From positions 1-64,000 of IMG/VR virus record IMGVR_UViG_3300032298_000540: DNA of 64,000 bases; one strand, written 5' to 3'. The notes beneath the pieces were generated by a model. That model made no database searches, was not told the origin of the DNA, and saw nothing but the letters and a program-made list of their open reading frames with translations. The stretch's first letter is position 1, and each line of letters starts with the position of its first letter. The DNA is from a virus. The translations under genes and the position numbers were made by a program. Positions 437 through 15,730 of the stretch are shown here, one piece after another.

Positions 437-802
437 CTACTTTATGTATAGGTAGCCGCCTGCCCAATCAGCTTGCTCTAGACATTCTGCATAAGATGCA
501 TCGTCTAGTAAGTTGTATCTTACATGTTTAGCAGGTGCTCGATAACCTGCTGGTTTGTAGATAGCACCTGTTTGTCTGCAGACAAAAGCATGGACTGATT
601 TACCGGTAACCAATCCGATTGAATAGGTTACTTGCATGATCTTATAGTATTTAGTACCTTTGTTAAGTTCAAAGGACATGCAACCGTATCTTTTAGGATA
701 GGCTTTCTCAAAGCTACGGATTAGCTTGGAGATAAGACCGTCGATACGATCTTCTATTGTCTTAGTAGTCTTCTCGAGACTTGTTGTAGATGCGATGACC
801 AT
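437..802 (-). CDS. conserved phage hypothetical protein, 121 aa
   Basis: The N-terminal half is helical and basic. The C-terminal half carries the pattern V-H-A-F-V-C, then T-G-x-I-Y-K-P-A and A-P-A-K-H-V-R-Y-N-L-L, ending in A-D-W-A-G-G-Y-L-Y. I associate that tail with a small protein widespread in marine and freshwater cyanophages whose function is unknown to me. It follows the 95-aa gene in the same leftward set. The 55-nt gap before it contains a small hairpin (TGTC/GACA) resembling one downstream of the 103-aa gene. Confidence 0.72.
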   Translation of the reverse strand: MVIASTTSLEKTTKTIEDRIDGLISKLIRSFEKAYPKRYGCMSFELNKGTKYYKIMQVTYSIGLVTGKSVHAFVCRQTGAIYKPAGYRAPAKHVRYNLLDDASYAECLEQADWAGGYLYIK

Positions 803-856
803 TAGTTGATTGCGATGGAATGTAAGCAGTTTAATGTCATGCTTAGGACATGTGAT

Positions 857-1576: not shown

Positions 1577-1668
1577 GTTTCTAGGATGAGTTGAAATAGT
1601 AGTGTGAATAGGATTGAGACGATGGTAATGCTGATGACTATTACGTCATCTTCTCTTGAGTTGTTCAT
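1261..1668 (-). CDS. possible overlapping membrane-anchored ORF
   Basis: The first ~37 residues look real: Met-Asn-Asn-Ser, an acidic patch, then a ~22-residue hydrophobic helix. The start shares the sequence ATGAACAACTC with the gene at 2161. Beyond that the frame runs antiphase through the 120-aa gene and becomes Ser/Thr/Lys-rich low-complexity sequence, as expected from an out-of-frame reading. Either a long overlap exists or only the start is meaningful. It overlaps the end of the preceding cistron by 23 nt. Confidence 0.25.
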   Translation of the reverse strand: MNNSREDDVIVISITIVSILFTLLFQLILETWHYFQSNSKSQQQSVTSPLTVTKVLLSTQPMLTSRPLLLKEQSPVQGTSVKISTVPSAATGFQQETTTPPKRKTSSKGGTTCQRLKTSKSTRSTTPAIPQQVTK

Positions 1669-1858
1669 GTTGTGTTGGAGTCAAGGGTGTGGTTATATCA
1701 GAGCCTAACCCTGCTGTTATGACAATAGCCATCACAGCAGCGGCTCCGATGAATGTAATGATATTTAATATGGTTAGCTTTAACTGTTTAATATCTTTAC
1801 TGCGACGATACGTGTCTAGTTCCACGTACCTGCCGCAGATCTTGTGAGTGTTCTTCAT
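1646..1858 (-). CDS. small membrane protein, 70 aa
   Basis: The N-terminal ~27 residues are basic and polar, followed by one long hydrophobic segment (about residues 29-52, with A-A-A-V-M-A and a Gly) and a short basic tail. It is predicted to be a single-span inner-membrane protein. Function is unknown. Its start lies 28 nt downstream of the ribozyme, so a cleaved transcript would carry a ~55-nt leader from the cut site. Confidence 0.55.
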   Translation of the reverse strand: MKNTHKICGRYVELDTYRRSKDIKQLKLTILNIITFIGAAAVMAIVITAGLGSDITTPLTPTQHEQLKRR

Positions 1859-1885
1859 AGTAATGATGCAATAGGTTTCTGATGT

Positions 1886-1958
1886 GGACTCATCAGGGCA
1901 GTAATTAACTGCCGACTAAGTTACAACATCGTTATAATGTTATAACTTAGTTTCGTCC
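1886..1958 (-). ncRNA. type II hammerhead ribozyme
   Basis: Reading the minus strand 5' to 3': GGAC (1958-1955, stem II 5' side); core GAAA (1954-1951); stem III, 14 pairs with one C-A mismatch (1950-1937 with 1929-1916) closed by a 7-nt loop; cleavage triplet GUC (1916-1914); stem I GGCAGT/ACTGCC (1913-1908 with 1902-1897) with a 5-nt loop; core CTGATGA (1896-1890); then GTCC (1889-1886), which pairs with GGAC. Every invariant hammerhead core base is present, and stems I and III are closed while II is open, which defines type II. Predicted cleavage is between 1914 and 1913. It lies 2 nt past a stop codon and 28 nt before the next start. Confidence 0.85.
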
Positions 1959-1960
1959 TG

Positions 1961-2161
1961 TTAGTTAAGGTGCTTCTTATCAACGCAGTACCATGCATCA
2001 CCCTGGAACAGGTGAAGATAGACTAGTTGACGATTAGGTGTACGCCAGCAGTTATCAATAGCCTGTGCATTAATCATTTTCTGGCCTACCACTGATAGTG
2101 CCATGCCAAGACCAGTGCCTATGATAACGGCTAGTACAGGACTTAATAGTGAGTTGTTCAT
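1961..2161 (-). CDS. small membrane-anchored protein, 66 aa
   Basis: An N-terminal hydrophobic segment with a G-x-G-L-G motif (about residues 5-25) is followed by a short soluble domain with two Cys and several aromatic residues. It could be a single-span membrane protein or be exported. Function is unknown. Its start is 4 nt after the stop of a six-codon upstream ORF that begins inside structured leader copy A. Its stop is 2 nt before the hammerhead ribozyme. Confidence 0.55.
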   Translation of the reverse strand: MNNSLLSPVLAVIIGTGLGMALSVVGQKMINAQAIDNCWRTPNRQLVYLHLFQGDAWYCVDKKHLN

Positions 2162-2245: not shown

Positions 2246-2489
2246 AGCCGTAGTTCTCTGGAAGCTCTACAAGCTCCGCAAGAACTTGGTGTTGCAGCTC
2301 GCGTTCGCCAGCAATCTTAAGACCCCATGCGGCGATCTCAAGTGCTTGCTCACGGCTTAGTAGCTGCGAGTGGCCTGACTCCATCCAATACTGGATGGTG
2401 TCGTAGGCTTTAGCCGCTAGCTCTTCCCTGGTAGGAAGTGTAGCTGTAGTAGCGTTGGTCACGGTGTTCTCCGTGTGTGCGGTACCCAT
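2244..2489 (-). CDS. hypothetical protein, 81 aa
   Basis: The N-terminus is Thr/Asn/Ala-rich and probably disordered. The C-terminal two thirds are helical and acidic (S-R-E-Q-A-L-E-I-A-A-W-G-L-K and a Leu/Glu-rich end). Function unknown. I place the start at 2489, the ATG in the conserved leader hairpin, rather than at 2528, because the 2528 start would translate the structured leader. A repeat of the leader lies just downstream. Confidence 0.5.
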   Translation of the reverse strand: MGTAHTENTVTNATTATLPTREELAAKAYDTIQYWMESGHSQLLSREQALEIAAWGLKIAGERELQHQVLAELVELPENYG

Positions 2490-2548
2490 CTCCGCTGGAG
2501 GTAATTGTTGCCGGTGGGTTTGCACCACCGGACTCGCTTAGACGAATC
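2479..2548 (-). ncRNA. structured leader RNA element, copy B
   Basis: The second copy of the three-hairpin leader, upstream of the 81-aa gene. Its first stem reads GATTCG/CGAGTC and the second CCGGTGG/CCACCGG with the identical TGCAAAC loop. The third, GCGG/CCGC, holds the start ATG, with GGAG only one base away, so translation could be gated by folding. Divergence from copy A is concentrated in the loops and the linker. Confidence 0.55.
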
Positions 2549-2610
2549 AACTTACAACCCAACATTCGTTTGAGAACGAAAGCATGCGATTCTAGCACGA
2601 CCTAATCTAT

Positions 2611-12433: not shown

Positions 12434-15400
12434 ATGCCCTCATATTTACATCTTGCGTATCGACGCAACGCAAGGGCGGCTGCAAAAAACTACACAGTTA
12501 AACCAGCTGATAACCAAGAAGCAGTAAAAAAAGCTAGAGAAGATTTTAGTTTCTTTTGTGAATATGTTGCTAACAAACCACCAGCCTCTCATCACAAAGA
12601 CTGGCACGGACACTTTGTAACAGGTGAAGATAGCGTTTGTTTAAAGAGTATAGCCGGTCCTAATATTGATCTACTTGGTCCCCGCGGACCACTAGCTGTA
12701 TCTACACCGGTAGCTACTCCTAATGGATGGGTACCCATAGGCGAACTACAAGTTAGTGATATTGTTTTTTCTGAACACGGGCAATTAACTGAAGTAGTAG
12801 GTATTTCAGATTACGAAGAATCTCTTACATGGGAAGTCGTCTTTACTGATGGTTCTTCTGTTCGTTGTGATGACCAACACCTATGGAAGGTTCGACGAAT
12901 GGGAACAGACGGAAAAGGAGATTGGCGCAGCATGACGCTTAATGAAATACGTACACAAAAAACAGTAGGGATTAAAGGGAATGGTCGCCCTGGAGCACTG
13001 ACCCAAAGAGTTACTGCAACATGTGAGTCAGGAGAAACACCTTGGTTAGATAGTAGAGGTTATCCTCGTTATCAGATTCCTGTCACACAACCAGTTGAAT
13101 ATCCAGCAACAGAGCTTCCTCTTGATCCATATTTATTAGGGGCATTACTTGGTGATGGTTCTCTTAGTTCCAATAACCTTTCCTTATGTAGTGCAGATCC
13201 AGAGATTGTTGAACGTTGTTCCTTAGGATTACCAGAAGATTATCGTTTTAAAAAAGTAGCAAAATATGGATATAATATCTCACATGTTAAAGGGGTTCTT
13301 GCGGGAGGAAAACCAAGTGTTGTGCGAGAGATCCTAAAAACACTTGGGGTCTATGGTAAAACATCAATTGATAAGTTTATTCCTAAGTCTTATTTGACAG
13401 CATCGATACCTGATCGAGAAGCATTGTTACAAGGGCTGCTAGACACAGATGGTACTGTTGCATCTACAGGAGGGGTGTCTTTTTGTACAACATCTACAGC
13501 TCTTGTTAAAGATGTAACAGAACTAGTTCAATCCCTTGGAGGGATAGCAACACAACGTGCGTCACAATTAAATACATACCTAAACAAACATCAAGAGCGT
13601 GTACGTACGACAACACCATCAGTTACCTTAGGTATCAAATTACCAGATAGCATTAAACCTTTTCACTTACACCGTAAAGCCCAAAGATATTCTCCTTGCA
13701 CCAAGTATCTTCCTTGCCGCAGCATTAAAGATATTCGTCCATCAACAACAGAAAAAGTACGTTGTATTGAAGTAGCTGACACCTGTCATACTTTCTTAAC
13801 TAAAGATTATATTGTTAGTCATAATTCGGCAAAGTCAACGACCTTAGGTTTGTTTACTGCATGGGCTATTGGTGTACATACCACAGCTAAATTACCTTTA
13901 CAAATTCTTTATCTTTCTTATACTGTTGAAATTGCACGTCCTAAGTCAGCTGCAATTAAACGTATTATAGAAAGTCGTAAATATCAAGAAGTATTTCCTG
14001 CAGTAAGACTTCTTAAGAACGTAACAAGTAATGAATACTGGTCAGTGGACCATAAATTTGCAGGCATAGAAAGTATCGGAGACGAGATGTTTACTCTCTG
14101 TGCTGCAGGCTTAAAAGGCTCAGTGACATCTAAGCGTTCCCATCTTTGCCTGATAGGGGATACACTGGTGTTAACAAATCATGGCAACGTTCCAATTGCC
14201 ACTATTTATGCAAATCCTGACGACTACCAAATTGCTACCAGAAATCACACCACAGATCAAATTGAGTGGAGCAACGTGGCCGCAGTTACAAAACGTAATA
14301 CCAAAGGAATTATTAGCATTGAAACAGAATGTGGAAATAAGATTCAATGCACTCCCGAACATCCTTTCATTACGGCGGACGGAAGGCAAAAGAGGGCAGC
14401 AGATTTTAGTCCAGGGGAAACCATTGTCGGATTATCCAACAGGGGACAAGTTGACACATTTACTAATTCTTGCAAGAGATTGTTCAATTTGCGTTGGTTG
14501 CAACACCTCGGAACACAAATAGCTATTAAACAACGGGCAACTGAGAACCAATCTTTGTGTCCACCATATAGATCACAATCTTTCAAACAATACCCCACAA
14601 AATTTAATCACGTTGTGCAGGCAGTGCCATGTAGCACATCACCAGATAACAGACAAAGCTGGGAGGCCGTCACCATTTCTAGAGTTGAGTTCTTTAGCGA
14701 AAAAGAGGAGTTTGTCTATGACTTAGAAGTCAGTCATAGCAGTCATAATTTTATTGCTAATGGTTTAAATGTTTTGAATTGTTTAATTGACGACTGTATA
14801 AAATCTGCTACGGATATAGCTAACCCTGATATACGTAAGGCAATGCAAGATAACTGGAACGCAGTTATTTCCCCAACTATGTTTGAAGGTGGAAGAGCAA
14901 TATGTCTGGGCACCAGGTTTAGACATGACGATATACATGCCACTACATTTAATGAACAAAATAATTGGCGACAGATCGTATTGTCTGCAATTCAACAAGA
15001 TCCTAAAACAGGAGATGAACTTTCCTATTGGCCTGAAATGTGGTCACTTGAATACCTAAAGGAAAAAAAACGAACGGCACCTATTGCATTCTCTTTTCAG
15101 TACATGAATCAAATAGTCAGACAAGGTGAATTATCCCTGGCACCAGAACTAATTGTAAAAGCCGAGATAGCAACAGAATTTGATTCACTTGGAATAGGGG
15201 TTGATTTATCTGCTGGTATTAAAGAAAAGAATGACTACACCGTAATGGTTCTAGGTGGACGCATTGATGATCGTATCCATATTATTGATTACCGCAGGAT
15301 ACGGGCCATGGGTAATCTAGAAAAGCTAGATGAAATGAAAGAATTACTTAATGATTGGTCAATCATAGGAAAGGATGACAATGGGAATTACTTCCCAACC

Positions 15401-15730
15401 TTTTCTACTTGTGATGTTTGGTCAGAAGCCGTCCAGTATCAAGCCTCTCTCGAAGCCGACTTTAAGAGGATTTGCCTTAATGACGAAGGTCTGCACAACT
15501 TGATCTGGCACCCCGTCAAGGGCTTCCGTGCAGATAAGCTGGCGCGGTTTAGGGGGATTATAGGCATGTTTGAAGAACGAAAAATAATCTTTAATCGTTT
15601 TCGGAACTTCACTAATCTCTTCGAGGAACTCACAAATTTCGGCGTGAGTAGTCATGATGATTGTGTGGATGCGTTGGTATGGCTAGTAAATGGATTGGCC
15701 AAAAAAGGAAAGCTCCAATTTGATTACTAG
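12434..15730 (+). CDS. terL: terminase large subunit, two inteins
   Basis: This is the packaging motor ATPase and headful nuclease; it acts at the prohead portal. The 1098-aa precursor loses 379 and 211 residues to give a ~508-aa product, normal for TerL. The spliced Walker A reads G-P-R-G-S-A-K-S-T and Walker B L-C-L-I-D-D. The nuclease part has G-V-D-L-S-A-G, T-C-D-V-W-S-E and a C-terminal S-H-D-D-C-V-D-A-L. The frame is uninterrupted through both inteins. A CTATATTT box lies ~20 nt before the ATG. Both inteins sit in ATP-site motifs, so activity requires both splicing events. Confidence 0.93.
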   Translation: MPSYLHLAYRRNARAAAKNYTVKPADNQEAVKKAREDFSFFCEYVANKPPASHHKDWHGHFVTGEDSVCLKSIAGPNIDLLGPRGPLAVSTPVATPNGWVPIGELQVSDIVFSEHGQLTEVVGISDYEESLTWEVVFTDGSSVRCDDQHLWKVRRMGTDGKGDWRSMTLNEIRTQKTVGIKGNGRPGALTQRVTATCESGETPWLDSRGYPRYQIPVTQPVEYPATELPLDPYLLGALLGDGSLSSNNLSLCSADPEIVERCSLGLPEDYRFKKVAKYGYNISHVKGVLAGGKPSVVREILKTLGVYGKTSIDKFIPKSYLTASIPDREALLQGLLDTDGTVASTGGVSFCTTSTALVKDVTELVQSLGGIATQRASQLNTYLNKHQERVRTTTPSVTLGIKLPDSIKPFHLHRKAQRYSPCTKYLPCRSIKDIRPSTTEKVRCIEVADTCHTFLTKDYIVSHNSAKSTTLGLFTAWAIGVHTTAKLPLQILYLSYTVEIARPKSAAIKRIIESRKYQEVFPAVRLLKNVTSNEYWSVDHKFAGIESIGDEMFTLCAAGLKGSVTSKRSHLCLIGDTLVLTNHGNVPIATIYANPDDYQIATRNHTTDQIEWSNVAAVTKRNTKGIISIETECGNKIQCTPEHPFITADGRQKRAADFSPGETIVGLSNRGQVDTFTNSCKRLFNLRWLQHLGTQIAIKQRATENQSLCPPYRSQSFKQYPTKFNHVVQAVPCSTSPDNRQSWEAVTISRVEFFSEKEEFVYDLEVSHSSHNFIANGLNVLNCLIDDCIKSATDIANPDIRKAMQDNWNAVISPTMFEGGRAICLGTRFRHDDIHATTFNEQNNWRQIVLSAIQQDPKTGDELSYWPEMWSLEYLKEKKRTAPIAFSFQYMNQIVRQGELSLAPELIVKAEIATEFDSLGIGVDLSAGIKEKNDYTVMVLGGRIDDRIHIIDYRRIRAMGNLEKLDEMKELLNDWSIIGKDDNGNYFPTFSTCDVWSEAVQYQASLEADFKRICLNDEGLHNLIWHPVKGFRADKLARFRGIIGMFEERKIIFNRFRNFTNLFEELTNFGVSSHDDCVDALVWLVNGLAKKGKLQFDY
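12689..13825 (+). mobile_element. TerL intein 1 (Walker A), LAGLIDADG homing endonuclease
   Basis: Precursor residues 86-464. The N-terminal splicing block is P-L-A-V-S-T-P-V-A-T-P and the C-terminal end is I-V-S-H-N before Ser. The LAGLIDADG motifs are L-L-G-A-L-L-G-D-G (234-242) and L-L-Q-G-L-L-D-T-D-G (331-340), both with Asp, so the endonuclease may be active. There is Pro rather than Cys/Ser at position 1. Trp151 in block B and Cys444 in block F match the class 3 triad; the expected Thr next to the penultimate His is Ser462. Confidence 0.87.
14147..14779 (+). mobile_element. TerL intein 2 (Walker B), mini-intein
   Basis: Precursor residues 572-782. It starts C-L-I-G-D-T-L, has a block B T-P-E-H-P-F, and ends F-V-Y-D-L-E-V then H-N-F-I-A-N-G-L-N-V-L-N before Cys. 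That is the class 1 layout with Cys1 and Cys+1. At 211 aa it has no LAGLIDADG or HNH motif, so it is probably endonuclease-free. The penultimate residue is Leu instead of the usual His, known in a minority of inteins and often linked to slower Asn cyclisation. Confidence 0.87.

Follow-up and report, generated by a model that had tools for sequence, protein, structure and literature searches.

A complete type II hammerhead ribozyme of 73 nt lies on the minus strand between two leftward small genes of a viral genome. The virus is IMG/VR record IMGVR_UViG_3300032298_000540 (76.9 kb). The window analyzed here is the 64,000-nt stretch from position 1 to 64,000 of that record, and the ribozyme runs from window position 1958 to 1886. 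We give a probability of about 0.88 to the reading that this RNA, carried in the leftward small-gene operon of an S-EIV1-like phage, cuts itself after C17 and separates the fates of the two cistrons. Coordinates are reported in Table 1.

Table 1. Features of the ribozyme and of the neighboring junctions (window coordinates).
Feature	Position	Strand	Basis
Type II hammerhead ribozyme, whole	1886..1958	-	Core and stems in sequence; fold z -7.3; R1 model 58.4 bits, E 8.6e-14
Stem II 5′ strand GGAC, pairs with GUCC 1886-1889, open-ended	1955..1958	-	Predicted fold; sibling-set consensus GGAC/GUCC with flanking A...A
Core GAA, then A15.1 at 1951	1952..1954	-	Sequence
Stem III 5′ strand, 16 nt including A15.1; loop 1931-1935	1936..1951	-	Predicted fold; two pairs with changes on both strands in 3 relatives
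Stem III 3′ strand, 16 nt including U16.1	1915..1930	-	Predicted fold; alignment of relatives
C17, last base of GUC triplet; predicted cleavage between 1914 and 1913	1914	-	Alignment to hammerhead core
Stem I, 6 bp GGCAGU/ACUGCC, UAAUU loop (U-N-A as in siblings)	1897..1913	-	Predicted fold; R1 match
Core CUGAUGA	1890..1896	-	Sequence
Stem II 3′ strand GUCC	1886..1889	-	Predicted fold
CAUCAG, complementary to core CUGAUG; possible core-sequestering hairpin 1879-1896	1879..1884	-	Energetics; unchanged in 3 relatives
Upstream cistron, 66 aa, stop TAA 2 nt before ribozyme	1961..2161	-	Homologues in S-EIV1 and many relatives
Downstream cistron, 70 aa, start 27 nt after ribozyme	1646..1858	-	96% identical in L002/L003
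Structured intergenic RNA, two copies, at junctions just upstream in the same operon	2176-2249 and 2479-2552	-	Covariation

The minus strand reads, 5′ to 3′, GGAC GAA A-CUAAGUUAUAACAUU-AUAAC-GAUGUUGUAACUUAG-U C GGCAGU-UAAUU-ACUGCC CUGAUGA GUCC. The invariant core (CUGAUGA ... GAAA ... UH, with U16.1 and C as H17) is present at a three-way junction. With loops closing stems I and III and a 4-bp stem II left open, the element was assigned to type II. The hammerhead is the exact minimum free energy (MFE) fold of the 73 nt by RNAfold (-29.9 kcal/mol, z = -7.3), and none of 200 shuffles was as stable. Sequence and MFE fold thus bear out the core bases, the 6-bp stem I, the open 4-bp stem II, and the topology that an initial sequence-only reading had described, and alignment to the core confirms its placement of the predicted cleavage site. 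Its account of stem III was corrected: instead of a 14-bp-class helix with a C-A mismatch, the window has 16 pairs, including A15.1-U16.1 and two G-U wobbles, and zero mismatches. An A-C mismatch occurs in the stem III of two relatives. The predicted cut leaves a hairpin on each new end. By inspection, the 12 nt after stem II hold no 4-bp complement of loop I that could form a loop I/3′-tail pseudoknot.

Chance resemblance has in its favor that the motifs of a hammerhead core are short. A looser descriptor (stems of at least 3, 4, and 4 bp) found one site in the window, the ribozyme itself, and gave 2 matches in 400 dinucleotide shuffles, or ~0.005 per window. Chance is an extremely improbable explanation, already refuted by conservation, by the 58.4-bit score described below, and by covariation in the sibling set.

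Rfam at gathering cut-offs returned zero matches for the ribozyme in the window. RF02276 (Hammerhead_II; gathering cut-off 37 bits), which shares architecture and core with the element, did not report it up to E = 10. RF00008 (Hammerhead_3, type III) was rejected at 20.9 bits against a cut-off of 48.5; its match, obtained at relaxed thresholds, was mis-threaded over 1870-1921 onto a downstream GAAAC and left stem III positions unpaired. Two sibling phage hammerheads with perfect cores scored 29 and 26.8 bits with RF02276, also under its cut-off, and the gathering search missed every pattern-matched hammerhead site in 11 loci. The negative result in the window thus reflects the reach of the model, and Rfam is blind to this phage subset.

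Siblings were collected from IMG/VR with the pattern GACGAAAC N20-50 GTC N12-24 CTGATGAGTC, which matched 118 stretches. A slightly looser local pattern gave 153 sites in the fetched loci, redundant copies included, of which 139 have both stems. About 85–97 distinct phage hammerheads were obtained with one pattern. A covariance model, R1, was built from 34 distinct sibling phage hammerheads, excluding the S-EIV1-like ones closest to the window. Its training set has 99.2% of cells paired, double changes in 14 of 19 pairs, and a covariation of 0.873 (0.159 when shuffled). R1 scored the window element at 58.4 bits (E 8.6e-14), its sole match in the window and in the whole 76.9-kb record. The sequence-only reading had set a covariance-model scan beforehand as a test that could refute it: the Rfam gathering search came back empty, and R1 recovered the element. 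Together with relatives that keep the core and the distinct phage hammerheads collected, this independent model upholds a complete type II hammerhead between two leftward cistrons.

The element resembles the phage subset of the form GGAC-GAAAC...GUC...CUGAUGA-GUCC (A1/R1) in its 4-bp stem II flanked by A and A, its 17–18 nt stem I with a U-N-A loop, an adjacent stop codon, and a start ~25 nt downstream; the U-N-A loop I and the flanking A/A of the sibling set are both present in the window. It differs in its longer stem III, in a UAAUU loop where the subset has UNANG, and in a competing CAUCAG hairpin that a minority of the subset has. In phage contigs L048, L060, L085, L046, and L013, consecutive gene junctions carry type II hammerheads, three to five per contig. 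In L049, a contig from another phage, a Twister-P5 ribozyme (745-803, minus strand, 45.2 bits) and a type II hammerhead lie within 0.8 kb of each other.

A comparison with 50,697 phage records gave Synechococcus phage S-EIV1 as the only DNA relative of the region. Judged from sequence, the host genome of the ribozyme is a freshwater cyanophage related to S-EIV1. A 1098-aa open frame at 12434-15730 on the plus strand of the window resembles, by eye and from its translation only, a large terminase with intein-like inserts. Two closer IMG/VR contigs, L002 and L003, also have the ribozyme, without any change in its core, stem I, or stem II. Most of the differences in stem III preserve pairing (a U-A/U-G/C-G series, an A-U/G-C exchange, and a U-G/C-G change), and one pair is broken. 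Across the three relatives two pairs vary on both strands, which on its own is weak covariation. An exact-stem search of IMG/VR for the particular stem III of the window found none, and the stem sequence varies even among close relatives.

True ribozyme matches occur in 2 of 50 S-EIV1-like records (L002 and L003). The other 48, S-EIV1 included, lack one; many of the 50 are fragments, and several are 60–84 kb. Two further hammerhead candidates were rejected for broken cores or stems: G001, a relative, gave a second one at 20.6 bits, and G022 gave one at 15.8 bits. More distant contigs with weak protein similarity to this phage (L054, L071, L103, L109, and L117) have hammerheads at other places. 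The ribozyme is probably a lineage-specific occupant of its junction, with repeated gain or loss across the wider group. Its absence from most relatives would also fit a degenerate or inactive relic, kept as a stable, non-catalytic intercistronic hairpin that blocks exonucleases. The 16-bp stem III would by itself protect a 3′ end, and a competing fold described below is 2.6 kcal/mol lower. A relic would be expected to lose its core; in three phages, however, core and stems I and II stay the same while stem III and the 3′ flank have diverged. We regard a relic as quite improbable.

Neither the 66-aa nor the 70-aa cistron has a family match in Pfam or PHROGs. A search of IMG/VR for exact peptides of the upstream gene confirmed none, and relatives of this gene were found by tblastn among the fetched loci. 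S-EIV1 encodes a homologue of the upstream gene (44% identity) and a later gene of the operon (68%), and lacks both the downstream gene and the ribozyme. In L003, another gene is inserted between; its end, TAA-CA, likewise abuts the ribozyme, and the junction thus persists despite a changed upstream cistron. The exact change of gene at the stop/ribozyme border in L003, and the joint absence of ribozyme and downstream gene from S-EIV1, would be consistent with a sequence conserved as a boundary at which gene cassettes recombine, with catalysis incidental. This is improbable: stem III, in the relatives and in the sibling set, compensates rather than keeping an identical sequence, and compensatory changes point to selection on RNA structure, not on DNA identity.

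The upstream stop codon is at 1961-1963, and the spacing of 2 nt from it, as first read, stands; the distance to the next start, first given as 28 nt, is one nucleotide shorter. A stop codon of a frame of at least 40 codons is found within -4 to +6 nt of stem II in 61% of 74 distinct phage hammerheads, versus 6% of random positions, and a start lies within 60 nt in 92%, versus 63% at random positions. The placement of the window ribozyme is typical and obeys this general rule of phage hammerheads. A promoter scan gave no more matches than shuffled sequence.

Six nucleotides of the core, CUGAUG (1896-1891), can pair with CAUCAG (1884-1879) just downstream. The hairpin exists as the sequence-only reading described it and is somewhat over-represented in the sequences compared; the proposal that it switches the core off is only suggestive, from energetics and an excess of CATCAG. 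In silico, an RNA ending 3 nt past stem II favors the hammerhead (stem II probability 0.999). With 7–9 nt past stem II, and with tertiary contacts ignored, the hairpin is favored by 1.4 to 2.6 kcal/mol, stem II probability falls to 0.12–0.02, and the competing hairpin becomes the MFE fold (-34.2 vs -31.6 kcal/mol). CAUCAG is constant in the three relatives while the remainder of the leader varies. CATCAG occurs within 4 nt of GTC in 5 of 97 distinct phage hammerheads (0.22 expected; 0 of 3000 column shuffles), and a 6-bp version allowing Watson-Crick and G-U pairs in 8 of 97 (1.9 expected; 2 of 3000 column shuffles). Hairpins of this type are spread over about six lineages. Core-complementary words downstream of hammerheads, pooled over all 5- to 7-mers, showed no significant enrichment; only CATCAG stands out.

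These observations allow for a regulated ribozyme, in which the conserved CAUCAG switches the core off, for example with transcription timing or ribosome movement, and cutting is conditional. The constancy of CATCAG in the relatives, its excess across lineages, and the energetics favor such regulation. However, ~90% of phage hammerheads lack the hairpin, the CATCAG test was prompted by the window itself, the pooled tests were not significant, and the hairpin is equally explicable as a lock on the product after cutting. Regulation is a tentative refinement of intercistronic cutting, compatible with it and somewhat unlikely.

Hammerheads cut 3′ of H17 and leave a 2′,3′-cyclic phosphate and a 5′-OH (PMC3088659). 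Examples of type II hammerheads from prophages cut during transcription in vitro, and the one from A. tumefaciens also cuts in E. coli (PMC3088659). Perreault et al. proposed in 2011 that processing of long phage transcripts yields mRNAs of operon or gene length (PMC3088659). The likely function of the window ribozyme, by analogy with that proposal for other prophage operons, is to cut a polycistronic RNA. RNA polymerase would pass the stop of the 66-aa gene and complete the 73-nt element, and the RNA would fold with stem II open. The folded RNA would cut itself after C17 (1914/1913). The upstream messenger would then carry a 2′,3′-cyclic phosphate at the end of its terminal 16-bp stem III hairpin, and the downstream messenger would begin with a 5′-OH on the stem I hairpin, 55 nt before its AUG. 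Stability or translation of the two cistrons would be decoupled and their fates separated. Before the cut, the CUGAUG/CAUCAG hairpin would compete with the core; after it, the downstream product may refold the core into this hairpin, which would make cleavage irreversible. The ribozyme is real and correctly named, and with good probability it functions as proposed. The analysis shows its anatomy, conservation, phage setting, and placement; cleavage in the infected cell, its effects on the messages, and the role of the competing hairpin are what we infer.

Intercistronic type II hammerheads of phages were already known in 2011 (PMC3088659). The window ribozyme shares with those of prophage operons (Perreault et al. 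2011, PMC3088659) its core, a stem II left open, loops on stems I and III, and a position between phage cistrons. It differs in being a single copy, in showing no 4-bp loop I/3′-tail pseudoknot, and in an unusually long (16 bp), A/U-rich stem III. That pseudoknot is used by ~40% of hammerheads and is common, not obligatory (PMC3088659). No earlier hammerhead report for S-EIV1-like cyanophages was found in the literature searched.

Structured RNAs were also found at neighboring junctions. The two-copy RNA just upstream in the operon is a three-way junction with a T-loop-like hairpin (UGCAAAC), followed on its 3′ side by an H-type pseudoknot in about half of the collected copies. Across 20 distinct copies with the pseudoknot, 99.6% of cells are paired and double changes occur in each of the five helices; covariation is 0.457 versus 0.162 shuffled. 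The pattern of this RNA matches 113 IMG/VR stretches. Of 104 distinct copies in S-EIV1-like phages, 89 contain the TGA stop codon of the gene upstream. P1 and P3 total 12 bp, like an acceptor plus T arm; ARAGORN calls no tRNA. Rfam at E <= 10 gave nothing credible for it. The three-way-junction RNA with its pseudoknot is apparently undescribed, and may be an RNase P site, a riboswitch-like leader, or an undescribed ribozyme. A variant near locus position 1771 in L217 and L212 has a 7-bp P1, a 5-bp T-stem, and a tRNA-like AUCGAAU loop, then the same pseudoknot.

A short TGTCC...TGACA repeat (TGTCCTRRGYATGACATTAAACT) occurs in the window at 829-850 and 31-52 on the minus strand, ~6–8 nt after stop codons. 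In S-EIV1 and L293, this repeat occupies the junction corresponding to that of the hammerhead. A third junction element, CTGCAC-hairpin-TCTGCAG-hairpin, was seen for example in L225, L229, L230, and L242, including the junction 3′ of homologues of the 66-aa gene. This two-hairpin CUGCAG element is found at the hammerhead-equivalent junction in most other relatives, and 31 of 47 distinct copies have a stop codon whose end lies exactly 3 nt upstream. CUGCAG is common to both hairpins, which suggests alternative folds.

At the stop codon, junctions of the S-EIV1-like small-gene operon may bear structured RNAs that substitute for one another (hammerhead, tRNA-like RNA with pseudoknot, CUGCAG element, and TGTCC...TGACA repeat). 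Because relatives carry one of the other elements where this phage has a hammerhead, those elements may also serve in RNA processing, possibly as RNase P-type sites or as self-cleaving ribozymes not yet described. We consider this extension unlikely as it stands.

The ribozyme is a clean, conserved hammerhead in a freshwater cyanophage group, missed by current RNA libraries, and shows type II hammerheads of phages set precisely at stop codons. It also provides an entry point to neighboring junctions, where a structured RNA absent from Rfam is supported by covariation, and these junction elements may be worth more than the ribozyme itself.
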